The notes under the pieces: generated by a model
The model's database searches: none
The model's input: the letters and a program-made list of their open reading frames with translations, nothing else
Told to the model about the DNA's origin: nothing
Shown: positions 34,001-40,000 of the stretch, piece by piece
Position numbering within the stretch: the first letter of the stretch is position 1
Layout of the letters: the number at the start of each line of letters is the position of its first letter
Program-made: the position numbers and the translations under genes
From: Closterium sp. NIES-65
Lineage: Eukaryota > Streptophyta > Zygnematophyceae > Desmidiales > Closteriaceae
Direction: 5' to 3'
Assembly: GCA_948144175.1 (NCBI GenBank)
Contig: CANXME010001989.1
Coordinates: 1-64,000, forward strand
Length of the DNA: 64,000 bases

Positions 34001-37000
34001 CGCCTCCGCTGCTGTCGAGGCCGCCACTGGGGGCGGCATGGGCAGCATGCGCGGGCGCTTGGCGGGCGACCGGTGGGGGGGGCGCGGGGATGAGTGGGGC
34101 AGCGGGGGGGGCAGTGAGAAGGAGGCACGGCGGGGGGGACGAGGGGAGGAGGGGTATGAGAGTCCACAGGAGATGGTGGAGAGCAACGAGCAGATCTTCC
34201 AGCAGGCGTGGGAGAACGACCGCCACGACGACTCGCCCGCTCTCCCCTGGCCCTCGCCCTCGCCCCCCGCCTCCTCGCCTGCCGCCCCCTCCGCCACCAC
34301 CCCGCCCAGCAGTAGCAGCAGCACGGGTGGGAGGGGCGGAGGCGCGGAAGGGGAGGAAGCAGCGCCGACGGCAGCGGTGGCGCGGCGGCAGGTGCAGATG
34401 CACGTGAGGGACGCGGCACGCACGCTGTCGGTGGAGTCGGGGGGCGCGCACTACCAGCGCCGCATCGTGGCGGCAGCAGGGGACGCCAGCAGCATGTCGG
34501 ACGCCGAGGGTGGCTCTGGCCCCCGCACCCGCCACGCCCCCGCTGCCGCCTCCCTCAGCGCCGGCGCCCGCGGCGAGGTGTCCCGCCTCGCCCGCCCCCG
34601 CAACTTTGCAGACTTCCGCGCGGAGCGACTTGTGGGTGGCGGGGCAGGGGGCGCCGGGGGAGGGGGACCCAGCACCCCCAGGGGCGGGGCAGGGACGCCA
34701 AGAGGAGGGGAGGGGGGCGGGAGGGCAGGAGGGGGGGGAGGAGCCGGGGGGGCATCCACGCCCAGGAGGGTGGGCGCTGAGCGAGTGGGGTCGGATGATG
34801 ACGTGGAGGAGAGGGCGGCAGGGGGAGGGGGAGGGGGAGGGGGAGGGGGGGGGGGGAGGGCAGCGAGAGAAGGGGATGGGAGGGCGCGTGGGGCCGGGGG
34901 GCAGTGGCGTGGAGAGGCGGGGGGCGTCCACCCCGCGGGCCGTGCGCGACAACCCCTATGCCTCCTGGAACGGCGGCGCCCTGCCAGACAGAGGCTCCCT
35001 GGCGGACAGGAGCGGGGGGGGCGCGGGCAGTGGCGGGGACAGGCAGCCACACCGGTCAGTCAGCTCAGAAGAACGGCAGGGGGAGGGGATGGGGAGCGGG
35101 GGTAAGGGGGGAGGGGGGAAAGGGGCAGCGCATTTGAGGCAGGTGAGGGACAGTGGCAGTGCGGACAGTGACAGCGAGGTGGTGAGCCGGCGGTCGCGCG
35201 CCATCAAGGCTGCAGCGGGGGGCGGCCCCTCCACGCCCTCGCGCTCCCCTCCCCCCTCCGACTTCTCCCGTCGCTTCTCCTCGCTGCGCGTGGCTGATGG
35301 CGCCGGGCAGCGCGCCGGCAGCCCCGGCAGCAGTGCGGGCGGCGAGGAGGATTCGGGCAGGCGCGGGGGCGCAGGCAGTGCAGGCAGTGCGAGGCCGAGG
35401 AGTCCGCTGAGGGGCGCACAGGCAGCGCCATGTGACGACGACAGCAGCCCGCGCACCCCCACCGGTGGGCCGGCTCCCCCATCGGGTGCAACGGCTGGGG
35501 GAGGAGGCGGCAGCATCAGTGGCGGCGGCGTTGGCGGGGGGCGCATGACTCCGCGGGGGGGCCGCGAGCGCAGGTCCGTGAAGTTCGCCGTGCCCGAGGG
35601 GGGCGACCGCGACCGCGACCGGGGCAGACCCGGGAGCAGTGGCTTGGACGAGGGAGGTGCGAGCGAGGGCAGGGGGAAAGGCAAGGACGCAAGCGAGAGG
35701 GCTGAGAGAAAGGAGCGCAGCGATCGCAAGTGCCAGTCGTTTGTGCCGCCGTCGTCAGCTGGTGCTGGCAGGAAGATGGGTGCGGCATCGGTGTCCGAGG
35801 AGGACCTGAAGCTCATCCGCGCCGACTGGCGGGATGACGCTGCCAGGAACGGGTGTGTGGCGTGCGGGCAGGTGCAGTGCGAGTGCAAGACCCGGCCCGA
35901 GAACAGAGGTGCTGCGCCGAAGTCAGGCATGGGGGATGATGTAAAGGCGGGAGGGAGCAAGGAGGGCAAGGAGAAAGGCGGGGGGAAGGAGCAGGAGAAG
36001 CAGGATAAGGCGGGGCAGAAAGAGGCAGGGGGGCAGGGTGGGGAGGAGGAGGAGGACGAGGCGTTGCCGGAGGAGCTGCTGCAGGACGACCCCGAGGTGT
36101 CCCCGCTGGGCACCATGAAGTGGAAGCGCGGCGAACTGCTGGGTGAAGGCGCGTACGGCAAGGTGAGCTGCTGGGTGAAGGCGCGTACGGCAAGGTGAGC
36201 TGCTGGGTGAAGGGGCGTACGGCAAGGTGAGCTGCTGGGTGAAGGGGCGTACGGCAAGGTGAGCTGCTGGGTGAAGGCGCGTACGGCAAGGTGAGCTGCT
36301 GGGTGAAGGCGCGTACGGCAAGGTGAGCTGCTGGGTGAAGGCGCGTACGGCAAGGTGAGCTGCTGGGTGAAGGCGCGTACGGCAAGGTGAGCTGCTGGGT
36401 GAAGGGGCGTATGGCAAGGTGAGCTGCTGGGTGAAGGCGCGTACGGCAAGGTGAGCTGCTAGGTGAAGGCGCGTACGGCAAGGTGAGCTGCTGGGTGAAG
36501 GCGCGTACGGCAAGGTGAGCTGCTGGGTGAAGGCGCGTACGGCAAGGTGAGCTGCTGGGTGAAGGGGCGTACGGCAAGGTGAGCTGCTGGGTGAAGGGGC
36601 GTACGGCAAGGTGAGCTGCTGGGTGAAGGGGCGTACGGCAAGGTGAGCTGCTGGGCGAAGGGGCGTACGGCAAGGTGAGCTGCTGGTGAAGGGGCGTACA
36701 GCAAGGTGAGCTGCTGGGTGAAGGGGCGTACGGCAAGGTGAGCTGCTGGTGAAGGGGCGTACGGCAAGGTGAGCTGCTGGGTGAAGGGGCGTACGGCAAG
36801 GTGAGCTGCTGGGTGAAGGGGCGTACGGCAAGGTGAGCTGCTGGTGAAGGGGCGTACGGCAAGGTGAGCTGCTGGGTGAAGGCGCATACGGCAAGGTGAG
36901 CTGCTGGGTGAAGGCGCGTACAGCAAGGTGAGCTGCTGGGTGAAGGGGCGTACGGCAAGGTGAGCTGCTGGGTGAAGGCGCGTACGGCAACGTGAGCTGC

Positions 37001-40000
37001 TGGGTGAAGGCGCGTACGGCAAGGTGAGCTGCTGGGTGAAGGGGCGTACGGCAAGGTGAGCTGCTGGGTGAAGGCGCGTACGGCAAGGTGAGCTGCTGGG
37101 TGAAGGCGCGTACGGCAAGGTGAGCTGCTGGGTGAAGGCGCGTACGGCAAGGTGAGCTGCTGGGTGAAGGCGCGTACGGCAAGGTGAGCTGCTAGGTGAA
37201 GGCGCGTACGGCAAGGTGAGCTGCTGGGTGAAGGCGCGTACGGCAACGTGAGCTGCTGGGTGAAGGCGCGTACGGCAAGGTGAGCTGCTGGGTGAAGGCG
37301 CGTACGGCAAGGTGAGCTGCTGGGTGAAGGCGCGTACGGCAAGGTGACCTGCTGGGTAAAGGCGCGTACGGCAAGGTGAGCTGCTGGGTGAAGGCGCGTA
37401 CGGCAAGGTGAGCTGCTGGGTGAAGGCGCGTACGGCAAGGTGAGCTGCTGGGTGAAGGCGCGTACGGCAAGGTGAGCTGCTGGGTGAAGGGGCGTACGGC
37501 AAGGTGAGCTGCTGGGTGAAGGCGCGTACGGCAAGGTGAGCTGCTGGGTGAAGGCGCGTACGGCAAGGTGAGCTGCTGGGTGAAGGCGCGTACGGCAAGG
37601 TGAGCTGCTGGGTGAAGGCGCGTACGGCAAGGTGAGCTGCTAGGTGAAGGCGCGTACGGCAAGGTGAGCTGCTGGGTGAAGGCGCGTACGGCAAGGTGAG
37701 CTGCTGGGTGAAGGCGCGTACGGCAAGGTGAGCTGCTGGGTGAAGGGGCGTACGGCAAGGTGAGCTGCTGGGTGAAGGCGCGTACGGCAAGGTGAGCTGC
37801 TGGGTGAAGGCGCGTACGGCAAGGTGAGCTGCTGGGTGAAGGCGCGTACGGCAAGGTGAGCTGCTGGGTGAAGGCGCGTACGGCAAGGTGAGCTGCTAGG
37901 TGAAGGCGCGTACGGCAAGGTGAGCTGCTGGGTGAAGGCGCGTACGGCAACGTGAGCTGCTGGGTGAAGGCGCGTACGGCAAGGTGAGCTGCTGGGTGAA
38001 GGCGCGTACGGCAAGGTGAGCTGCTGGGTGAAGGGGCGTACGGCAAGGTGAGCTGCTGGGTGAAGGCGCGTATGGCAAGGTGAGCTGCTGGGTGAAGGGG
38101 CGTACGGCAAGGTGAGCTGCTGGGTGAAGGGGCGTACGGCAAGGTGAGCTGCTGGGCGAAGGCGGTTACGGCAAGGTGAGCTGCTGGGTGAAGGGGCGTA
38201 CGGCAAGGTGAGCTGCTGGGTGAAGGGGCGTACGGCAAGGTGAGCTGCTGGGTGAAGGCGCGTACGGCAAGGTGAGCTGCTGGGCGAAGGCGGTTACGGC
38301 AAGGTGAGCTGCTGGGTGAAGGGGCGTACGGCAAGGTGAGCTGCTGGGTGAAGGGGCGTACGGCAAGGTGAGCTGCTGGTGAAGGGGCGTACGGCAAGGT
38401 GAGCTGCTGGTGAAGGGGCGTACGGCAAGGTGAGCTGCTGGGTGAAGGGCGTACGGCAAGGTGATCTGCTGGGTGAAGGGGCGTACGGCAAGGTGAGCTG
38501 CTGGTGAAGGGGCGTACGGCAAGGTGAGCTGCTGGGTGAAGGGGCGTACGGCAAGGTGAGCTGCTGGTGAAGGGGCGTACGGCAAGGTGAGCTGCTTGGT
38601 GAAGGCGCATACGGCTATGTTAGGAAAGACGCAGCCAGGACGCTGCGTCCTGCGTCTGGACGCAGCGTCCGGACGCTAGGACGCAGGACGCACGGTGAAA
38701 AAAAATTCGGGCAGCCCGAAAAAAAAAAGTTTTCCGCGATTTCGACATTCGCGATCTCGGCGCGAATGTCGAAATCCCGAAATTTCGACCCCCAAAGCCC
38801 AATGCGCCATTGTAAACCAGCCCCCCCCAACATTTCATAACAACTCATGCAAATTGAGAATTCACTCACAACCCATGCGTGACGCGTGACTCACCTTAGT
38901 AAAAAATTTTGGGGGAAAAAATTGAGGTTGGGGTAAAAATTGCATTGAAAAGTGTGGTACGTCCCCCCCCCTCCCCTCTGCCAAGACCTAAACACTTTTT
39001 TTGGGCCTGCCCGGGGGTTTTTTTTGCCCTGCCCGAGATTGCGTCTTTTGGTGCGTCTTACAGGTCCAGGTGACGCGTCCTGCGTCTGGACGCATTCGTC
39101 CAGGACGCAGGACGCGTCTTTCCTAACATAGGCATACGGCAAGGTGAGCTGCTGGGTGAAGGCGCGTACAGCAAGGTGGACCACGCCGCGCCATCACGCT
39201 GCTTCCCACCTGCCGCTCCACACTGCCGCGTTTTTTCCCCCCTTGCCACCTCCCCCCATTCCCGTTGCGTTCTCTCATGCTCCTGCCTCACTCCTTCCCC
39301 CTCCCGTCATCCCCACACCCCCCGTGGGGCGGGGCAGGTGTTTCTGGGGCTGAACGAGCGCACGGGCGAGCTGATGGCGGTGAAGCAGATGAAGATCAAC
39401 GCGGGCGACGAGCGCGCCATGCACATCGCAGCCTTGGAGCGCGAGATCGTGCTGTACCGCCGCATGCGGCACCGCCACATAGTGGGGTACATCGACATGG
39501 AGAAGGACCCCTCCGACGGCTCCATCTACATCTTCCTCGAATTCGTCTCCGGCGGCTCCATCCACAGGTGGGCTTTAAGAGAAGGACTCCATCGACAGGT
39601 GGGCTTTAAGAGAAGGACTCCATCCACAGGTGGGCTTTAAGAGGGCGGCTCCATCCACAGGTGGGCTTTAAGAGAAGGACTCCATCCACAGGTGGGCTTT
39701 AAGAGGGCGGCTCCATCCACAGGTGGGCTTTAAGAGAAGGACTCCATCCACAGGTGGGCTTTAAGAGGGCGGCTCCATCCACAGGTGGGCTTTAAGAGAA
39801 GGACTCCATCCACAGGTGGGCTTTAAGAGGGTGGCTCCATCCACAGGTTGGCTTTAAGAGGGCGGCTGCATCCACAAGTGGGCTTTAAGAAGGGGGCTCC
39901 ATTCACAGGTGGGGCTGCATCTTGTATCTGTGTGCATCTCCAGTGCTCCTTTATGTATCACTGCGCATCCTCACTTCTCCTGTCCTATCCTCTCCCGTCC

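Follow-up and report, generated by a model that had tools for sequence, protein, structure and literature searches.

How does an intron come to open with dozens of copies of the end of the exon that precedes it? The question is raised by a protein kinase gene of the streptophyte alga Closterium sp. NIES-65, which lies in a stretch of 64,000 nucleotides on contig C1691 of the 874-Mb genome; "the window" is used here for that whole stretch. An earlier note on this DNA had reported about 78 tandem copies of the exon end, each with the codons of the glycine loop and a 5' splice site (donor), and we confirm them: 77.8 copies of a unit of 27 nt of exon followed by GTGAG are present. The note knew of no comparable case, a claim that did not survive, since the same genome has many such arrays and exon stuttering has been published for the chicken, as the available text of that report describes it (PMC12954441). 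The features of the kinase locus needed first are as follows.

34510..41482, forward strand: kinase-coding part of the host gene, of the mitogen-activated protein kinase kinase kinase (MAPKKK) type, from the list of open reading frames, the Pkinase and PDB matches and exon matches.
34510..36162, forward strand: exon ending in LLGEGAYGK, source of the repeat unit (exon 6 of the earlier note), open when joined to 39338; the left limit given is that of the open frame.
36163..36168, forward strand: GTGAGC, the first 5' splice site; of 78 donor-like sites it alone, joined to 39338, is open through the next exon.
36136..38615, forward strand: 77.8 exon-end units of 32 bp in tandem, from Tandem Repeats Finder (TRF), decomposition into units and comparison with contigs C1279 and C1271.
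38615..39131, no strand assigned: inverted-repeat element inside the array, resembling a miniature inverted-repeat transposable element (MITE); its termini read CTATGTTAGGAAAGACGC and its flanks repeat the 8 bp GCATACGG.
39132..39177, forward strand: final ~1.5 array units past the inserted element, from the sequence.
39338..39567, forward strand: next exon (exon 7 of the earlier note), from tblastn with the exon peptide and the open join.

The joined exon peptides match the Pkinase profile at 6.8e-71, and the top PDB sequence match is named MAP kinase kinase kinase 2. The reading frame is open from 34510 on into the array, and the exon end at 36162 reads ...GAA CTG CTG GGT GAA GGC GCG TAC GGC AAG. 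TRF reports a single array from 36136 to 38615 with a period of 32 and 96% matches, whose unit is CTGCTGGGTGAAGGCGCGTACGGCAAG, the final 27 nt of the exon coding for LLGEGAYGK, plus GTGAG. The array had been said to start exactly at the splice junction; it starts 27 nt earlier, the first copy being the exon end itself. The interval given for it, 36133-39177, holds as far as 38615, the last part being mostly the inverted-repeat element followed by about one and a half units. When the stretch to 39180 is split at unit starts, 79 units are obtained as assembled, the final two being the unit that holds the inserted element and the next one. The array is far beyond chance and scores 51.8 bits in the exon-end copy screen described below. 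The MITE-like element belongs to a family that is dispersed in the genome with many partial copies and is found near full length at five places, three of which are copies of the kinase locus; it was inserted when the array already existed.

The same gene with the same array, and with unit variants in the same order, is found on contigs C1279 and C1271. The window has 79 units and each of the other two 83 (alleles and duplicates are not distinguished among the three contigs): where the window has a single fused unit (S), C1279 and C1271 have five (O P C Q R), and one further unit of C1271 is different. Such a whole-unit difference between copies of a locus is the pattern that unequal exchange or slippage would leave. 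Long repeats are difficult to assemble, and in C1271 (L012) the exon corresponding to window 40920-41079 is frame-shifted and the preceding one has only 81.6% identity, irregularities that an assembly artefact could produce. Three contigs that match unit by unit save one four-unit block and one unit speak against an artefact, as does the fact that most of the 21 cases in the TCP1 survey presented below are single nearby copies, not tandem clusters, and are not prone to assembly error; we hold an artefact to be extremely improbable. In the window and C1279, all six kinase exons are intact and encode identical protein.

The earlier note had proposed to compare the orthologous intron in related species, and a comparison with paralogs favours the link with the exon end. 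In paralog B (C1871) the intron at the homologous donor opens with an 18 bp x 30.2 array built from the end of B's exon, GCATACGGCAAG plus GTGAGT; the next donor of B is followed by 17 bp x 41.2, GGCTCCATGCACAG plus GTG, where the window has a counterpart of 31 bp x 11.6. The letters of the B array are those of B's exon (GCATACGG, where the window has GCGTACGG), and it is therefore a separate event. In paralog C (C831) 120 nt of an exon end are copied within the following intron. In paralog D (C1977) one exon end recurs four more times, 146 bp apart, and exon starts are copied as well, on the acceptor side. The own exon is the nearest source for 10 of 11 kinase copies of paralogs C and D, which disfavours derivation from a paralog.

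These paralogs also decide whether the intron arose or only grew by duplication, since the earlier note had allowed both. In the model of Rogers, tandem duplication of an exon segment bearing AGGT creates an intron, and the kinase unit does contain AAG|GTGAG. The array intron, however, lies at the same codon (GEGA[Y/F]GK|V) in the three diverged paralogs B, C and D, and at its donor C has no exon-end copy (12/16, chance level); the intron is thus older than the array. Creation by AGGT duplication was rejected for this shared position and is very improbable, and of the two original alternatives growth across the boundary stands: the array intron was enlarged, not created.

The consequences for splicing follow from the frame. 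There are 78 donor-like sites between 36136 and 39180, so the dozens of near-identical donors foreseen in the earlier note are indeed there. Each copy had also been credited with a potential acceptor; inspection bears out the donor and finds no credible acceptor. Because the motif of the first site recurs at most of the later ones, motif strength is unable to select the right donor and position would have to do it. On joining to 39338, only the first of the 78 sites leaves the frame open through the next exon; the unit length of 32 is no multiple of 3, and, by eye, in-frame read-through past the first donor hits a TGA at the second. Judged from the sequence, splicing would use the first donor, 36163.

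Further repeats, at the donors of the same gene and just upstream of it, are listed here.

39554..39913, forward strand: second array of this kind, 31 bp x 11.6, in which GGCTCCATCCACAG from the exon end is followed by GTGGGCTTTAAGAGGGG, from TRF and the sequence.
40547..40600, forward strand: GGCTGCACCGTCATTGA near the end of exon 40427-40578 plus its copy (16/16; 15-nt exact match).
41066..41113, forward strand: end of exon 40920-41079, 21 bp x 2.3, CCTCTGCCGCCCAG plus GTCAGTG, from TRF.
33539..33809, forward strand: array of 24 bp x 11.3 with 100% matches and without exon letters, from TRF.

Near the end of exon 40427-40578 a 17-nt piece has one copy directly past the donor (40584-40600), and the repeat at 41066..41113 is under threshold both in the 16-nt screen (12/16) and in the bit-score screen. 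The array without exon letters begins 6 nt past a putative donor at 33533, a guessed junction. Frames coding for ankyrin repeats lie at 32534-33360 on the same strand, just upstream of the kinase exons; among the junctions tried, no open join was found from 33934 to an upstream exon or from the ankyrin frames to the kinase exon, and the numbering of the source exon as exon 6 is accordingly not confirmed.

The four kinase paralogs were screened with a 16-nt match in 340 nt of flank (20 exon ends, 19 exon starts). An own copy at 14/16 or better lies downstream of 11 of the 20 exon ends, eight of them at 15/16; copies of exon starts lie upstream of 4 of 19 at either level, all four in gene D. Used as a query, the window array brought up two more, on C1759 (27 bp x 19.2) and C320 (29 bp x 29.2), both of which contain AAG|GT.

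A survey that was not selected for repeats covered 39 exon ends in 11 genes of the TCP1/cpn60 family, with one contig per gene; second-haplotype contigs, most terminal exon hits, hits resembling copies and a few others were omitted. The last 61 nt of each hit were searched against the following 335 nt. At 14/16 or better, a copy of the own end was found for 26 of 39 exon ends, compared with 3 of 390 other-gene pairs and none of 39 mirrored flanks. At 42.1 bits or more, the threshold of the bird study (PMC12954441), 21 of 39 exon ends, in nine of the 11 genes, recur in those 335 nt, and the controls gave 0/300 (other genes) and 0/195 (shuffled). Two exon ends are doubtful, L098, which is counted in the 21, and L106, which is not. 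The donor is copied at 18 of 39 loci and exon only at 8, by an automatic donor guess that is wrong at a few loci. In this small survey, about half of the exon ends are affected by stuttering.

Donor patterns were also counted over the whole genome. Triplets of closely spaced CAAGGTGAG give 2,334 matches and the mirror motif 71, a 33-fold excess (single motifs, 15,366 and 9,478), and three GCAGGTGRG occur 38,324 times, 119-fold the 321 of the mirror; these are overlapping matches, not loci. Twenty of the 71 mirror matches come from exon-end-like arrays (GAGTGGAACAAG plus GTGCGT, at C481:514506-514892 and C2116:152839-153063), so that the control is itself inflated by the phenomenon. Among the CAAGGTGAG triple matches listed there are about 20 distinct arrays, of which 11 were examined; those not examined are C10:1923357, C87, C117, C170 (two) and, as likely second copies, C53 (twice), C193 and C224. 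An open frame runs into the first copy in nine of the 11, and L057 and L060 have no exon at the array. Upstream peptides of ten arrays (L060 not included) were searched against Pfam, and four pass the curated cut-offs: glucosidase II beta, the N-terminal domain of GST, EF-Tu domain 4 (as in eIF5B) and PP4R3. Three more we take to resemble APC1, a fucosyltransferase and a kinase, and two of the nine adjoining frames are open frames only. The corresponding acceptor test with CCCTGCAGG gave 461 matches to 16 genome-wide, where three of the four strings shown are one ~30-bp repeat family and ~30-bp steps dominate the list of matches.

An excess of triple-donor arrays of 33 to 119 times the mirror control is what would be expected if a process directed at donors copied exon ends specifically, for example through R-loops, a co-transcriptional nick or the reinsertion of reverse transcripts of RNA that is fully or only partly spliced. 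It fits as well that clear similarity tends to break off shortly past the donor: at 16 of 20 aligned TCP1 loci, identity from +10 to +30 past the donor is at most 13/20. On the other hand, similarity extends well into the intron at L071, L073, L078 and partly L099, the acceptor-side copies of gene D are not what such a process would leave, and the array at 33539-33809 begins near a putative donor with no exon letters in it. Moreover, faster decay of intron letters combined with selection on the exon predicts much of the same pattern, and the scoring of copied donors was blind to the extent of intron included, as the query stopped 20 nt past the donor. We regard targeting of donors as unlikely.

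The explanation that we consider probable is frequent local tandem duplication, in which copies spanning the donor are tolerated as long as the first donor is kept, and pile up in the intron. In its favour are the arrays with their source in the adjoining exon, the whole-unit length change between locus copies, the separate array at the homologous donor of paralog B, the own-exon copies in both surveys, the triple-donor excess across the genome and the single productive donor among 78; use of the first donor in the cell, near-neutrality and the replication or repair step are inferred. The genome would be prone to frequent tandem duplication of segments of tens to a few hundred bp, some of which would then grow and shrink as minisatellites; replication or repair would often make such duplications in GC-rich DNA. 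When a duplication falls over a 5' splice site, the exon would retain its own end and the first donor, and the extra copies would land in the intron. If the first donor is used, such a duplication should be close to neutral, so that the copies are kept; copies that alter the exon would be eliminated by selection. A duplication spanning the acceptor should be less tolerated, because the upstream copy may be used first. The kinase array would be one event of this kind that ran away to 79-83 units. Slippage driven by hairpins was considered as a cause and rejected: the four strands tested, from three unit arrays with one also taken as its complement, fold no better than shuffles (z of +0.5, +0.5, +1.2 and +2.1).

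A number of observations weigh against local duplication as just outlined. When identical donors compete in vitro, it is often the one closest to the acceptor that is used, and such a preference would be harmful in this gene. The bias of donor over acceptor is weak (11/20 and 4/19, Fisher p 0.048 at 14/16; 8/20 and 4/19 at 15/16), the acceptor cases are confined to one gene, and the cross-controls of the kinase screen are not empty, with 1/20 for exon ends in upstream flanks and 3/20 for exon starts in downstream flanks. The hairpin stability of the units is unremarkable relative to shuffles, and all controls were drawn from the same genome. In the TCP1 survey, 14 of the 21 copies (L069-L105) lie at offsets of 140-173 bp, with a median of 164 (p 1.5e-9 relative to a uniform distribution over 20-335 bp, a crude null; at L099 a nearer copy exists), and such clustering is not predicted by plain random duplication. 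Finally, the copies differ from their exons at 65 synonymous and 47 non-synonymous positions (19 of the 21 copies, 333 codons; L076 and L082 omitted and codons with multiple changes counted crudely), so that non-synonymous differences fall below the expectation for free decay (p 8e-6 or 0.006, for an assumed 63% or 55%). Five copies (L072, L080, L086, L093 and L094) have 29 synonymous differences and no non-synonymous one, as if still coding; it is possible that they are used in some transcripts or are repeatedly copied anew. Other TCP1 copies show clear decay.

These last results bear on whether the copies have a function, as decoy donors tuning splicing or nonsense-mediated decay of the kinase mRNA or as alternative exon ends used in some transcripts. 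The five copies with synonymous differences only are in keeping with such roles, and the kinase array, where none of the 77 later donor-like sites is open through the next exon, could act as an off-switch. Against function, unit number and length vary among the locus copies and paralogs, chaperonin genes without known shared regulation have the same feature, and several TCP1 copies carry non-synonymous changes or a stop (L098). By eye there is also no clear acceptor before most TCP1 copies, their left ends being uncertain within the 61 nt of exon examined. A function for the copies is in our judgement improbable.

The offset cluster of 140-173 bp is close to nucleosome size. A bolder reading, to which we give a small chance, is that exon-edge duplication is the main route of intron growth, proceeding in nucleosome-sized steps of about 150 bp set by chromatin, some of the twins being under coding selection with both ends used in mRNA.

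The remainder of the window holds repeats of other kinds. Its first 24 kb (3-23858) is a satellite of a 31-bp unit with 769 copies and 92% matches; further 31-bp arrays at 24126, 51810 and 59674 have units that differ from it, those at 51810 and 59674 being by eye mutual reverse complements. Open reading frames of Copia-type retrotransposons (RVT_2, integrase core, SH3-like, gag_pre-integrs) lie at 28356-29579, 47801-51102 and 53422-58974. The GC content of positions 24000-64000 is 62%. As for the genome as a whole, its Rubisco small subunit comes closest to chains of land plants, with a best match of 178.7 bits as compared with about 123 bits for Chlamydomonas chains, which agrees with a streptophyte.

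Zhuo et al. (2007), judging by the title, reportedly associated human introns with tandem arrays. The closest known case, and the same kind of event, is exon stuttering in birds. According to the accessible portions of the report (Genome Biol Evol 2026; PMC12954441), exon or sequence stuttering occurs on the dot chromosomes of the chicken, where copies of an exon edge with its splice site have spread through the neighbouring intron in 190 of 5,572 introns; the source lies at most one base from the border in more than 90% of cases, 1-44 copies are present, the feature is associated with GC-richness and its mechanism is given as unknown. For gerbils, the same portions mention a single additional occurrence without showing the data (PMC12954441). 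The term "exon stuttering" was found in this paper alone within the open-licence literature, and no report of exon-end stuttering in a plant-lineage genome was found in that literature, as far as its available text extends.

As far as the bird system is described there, it shares with Closterium imperfect tandem copies of the exon edge with the splice site in the neighbouring intron, exon parts of tens of bases, intact exons and GC-rich DNA. Lengths vary too, in Closterium among three contigs (79, 83 and 83 units) that may be alleles or duplicates. The source copied in the window lies at the exon border and includes the splice site, the unit ending 5 nt past the donor, and imperfect tandem clusters are seen in the window, in paralog B and in other arrays. 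Unlike the bird system as so described, Closterium is a streptophyte, its cases lie on many contigs and affect 21 of the 39 TCP1-family exon ends surveyed, units number 79-83 at the extreme, many copies are single and offsets cluster at about 150 bp. The two rates are only roughly comparable, because the screens are not identical. The contigs include one of 7.5 Mb (C1052), and no concentration on small chromosomes as in birds is seen; in our reading, concentration on small, repeat-dense chromosomes is a trait of the bird case and does not define the process.

Two other systems are less close, again going by the available portions of the papers. In human genes within segmental duplications, minisatellite units of about 30 bp on average, some of them at exon-intron boundaries, alter introns, with 80 modifications in 210 loci (PMC2812944); many of these units stay exonic or help to form new introns, whereas in Closterium an intron that already existed is lengthened and the exon stays as it was. 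The model of intron gain by AGGT duplication, with ATP2A1 and a potato RdRp as examples (PMC4974935), shares with Closterium the tandem duplication of a segment with splice signals; the model gains an intron, whereas here none is new, as the intron exists in a paralog without the array.

What seems to be new here is that the host is a streptophyte, that cases are scattered across many contigs and that a far larger proportion of exon ends is affected. On the practical side, exon ends repeated in introns can mislead gene finders and read mappers. The kinase gene offers a natural experiment on a long-standing question, the choice that the spliceosome makes when many 5' splice sites are identical, since production of the kinase depends on the use of one out of about 78 near-identical donors. 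Closterium also provides a second, independent system for finding the cause of exon stuttering, and its occurrence on many contigs of a streptophyte rich in GC, with a seemingly much higher frequency than in birds, suggests that the process is a general one linked to GC-rich DNA.

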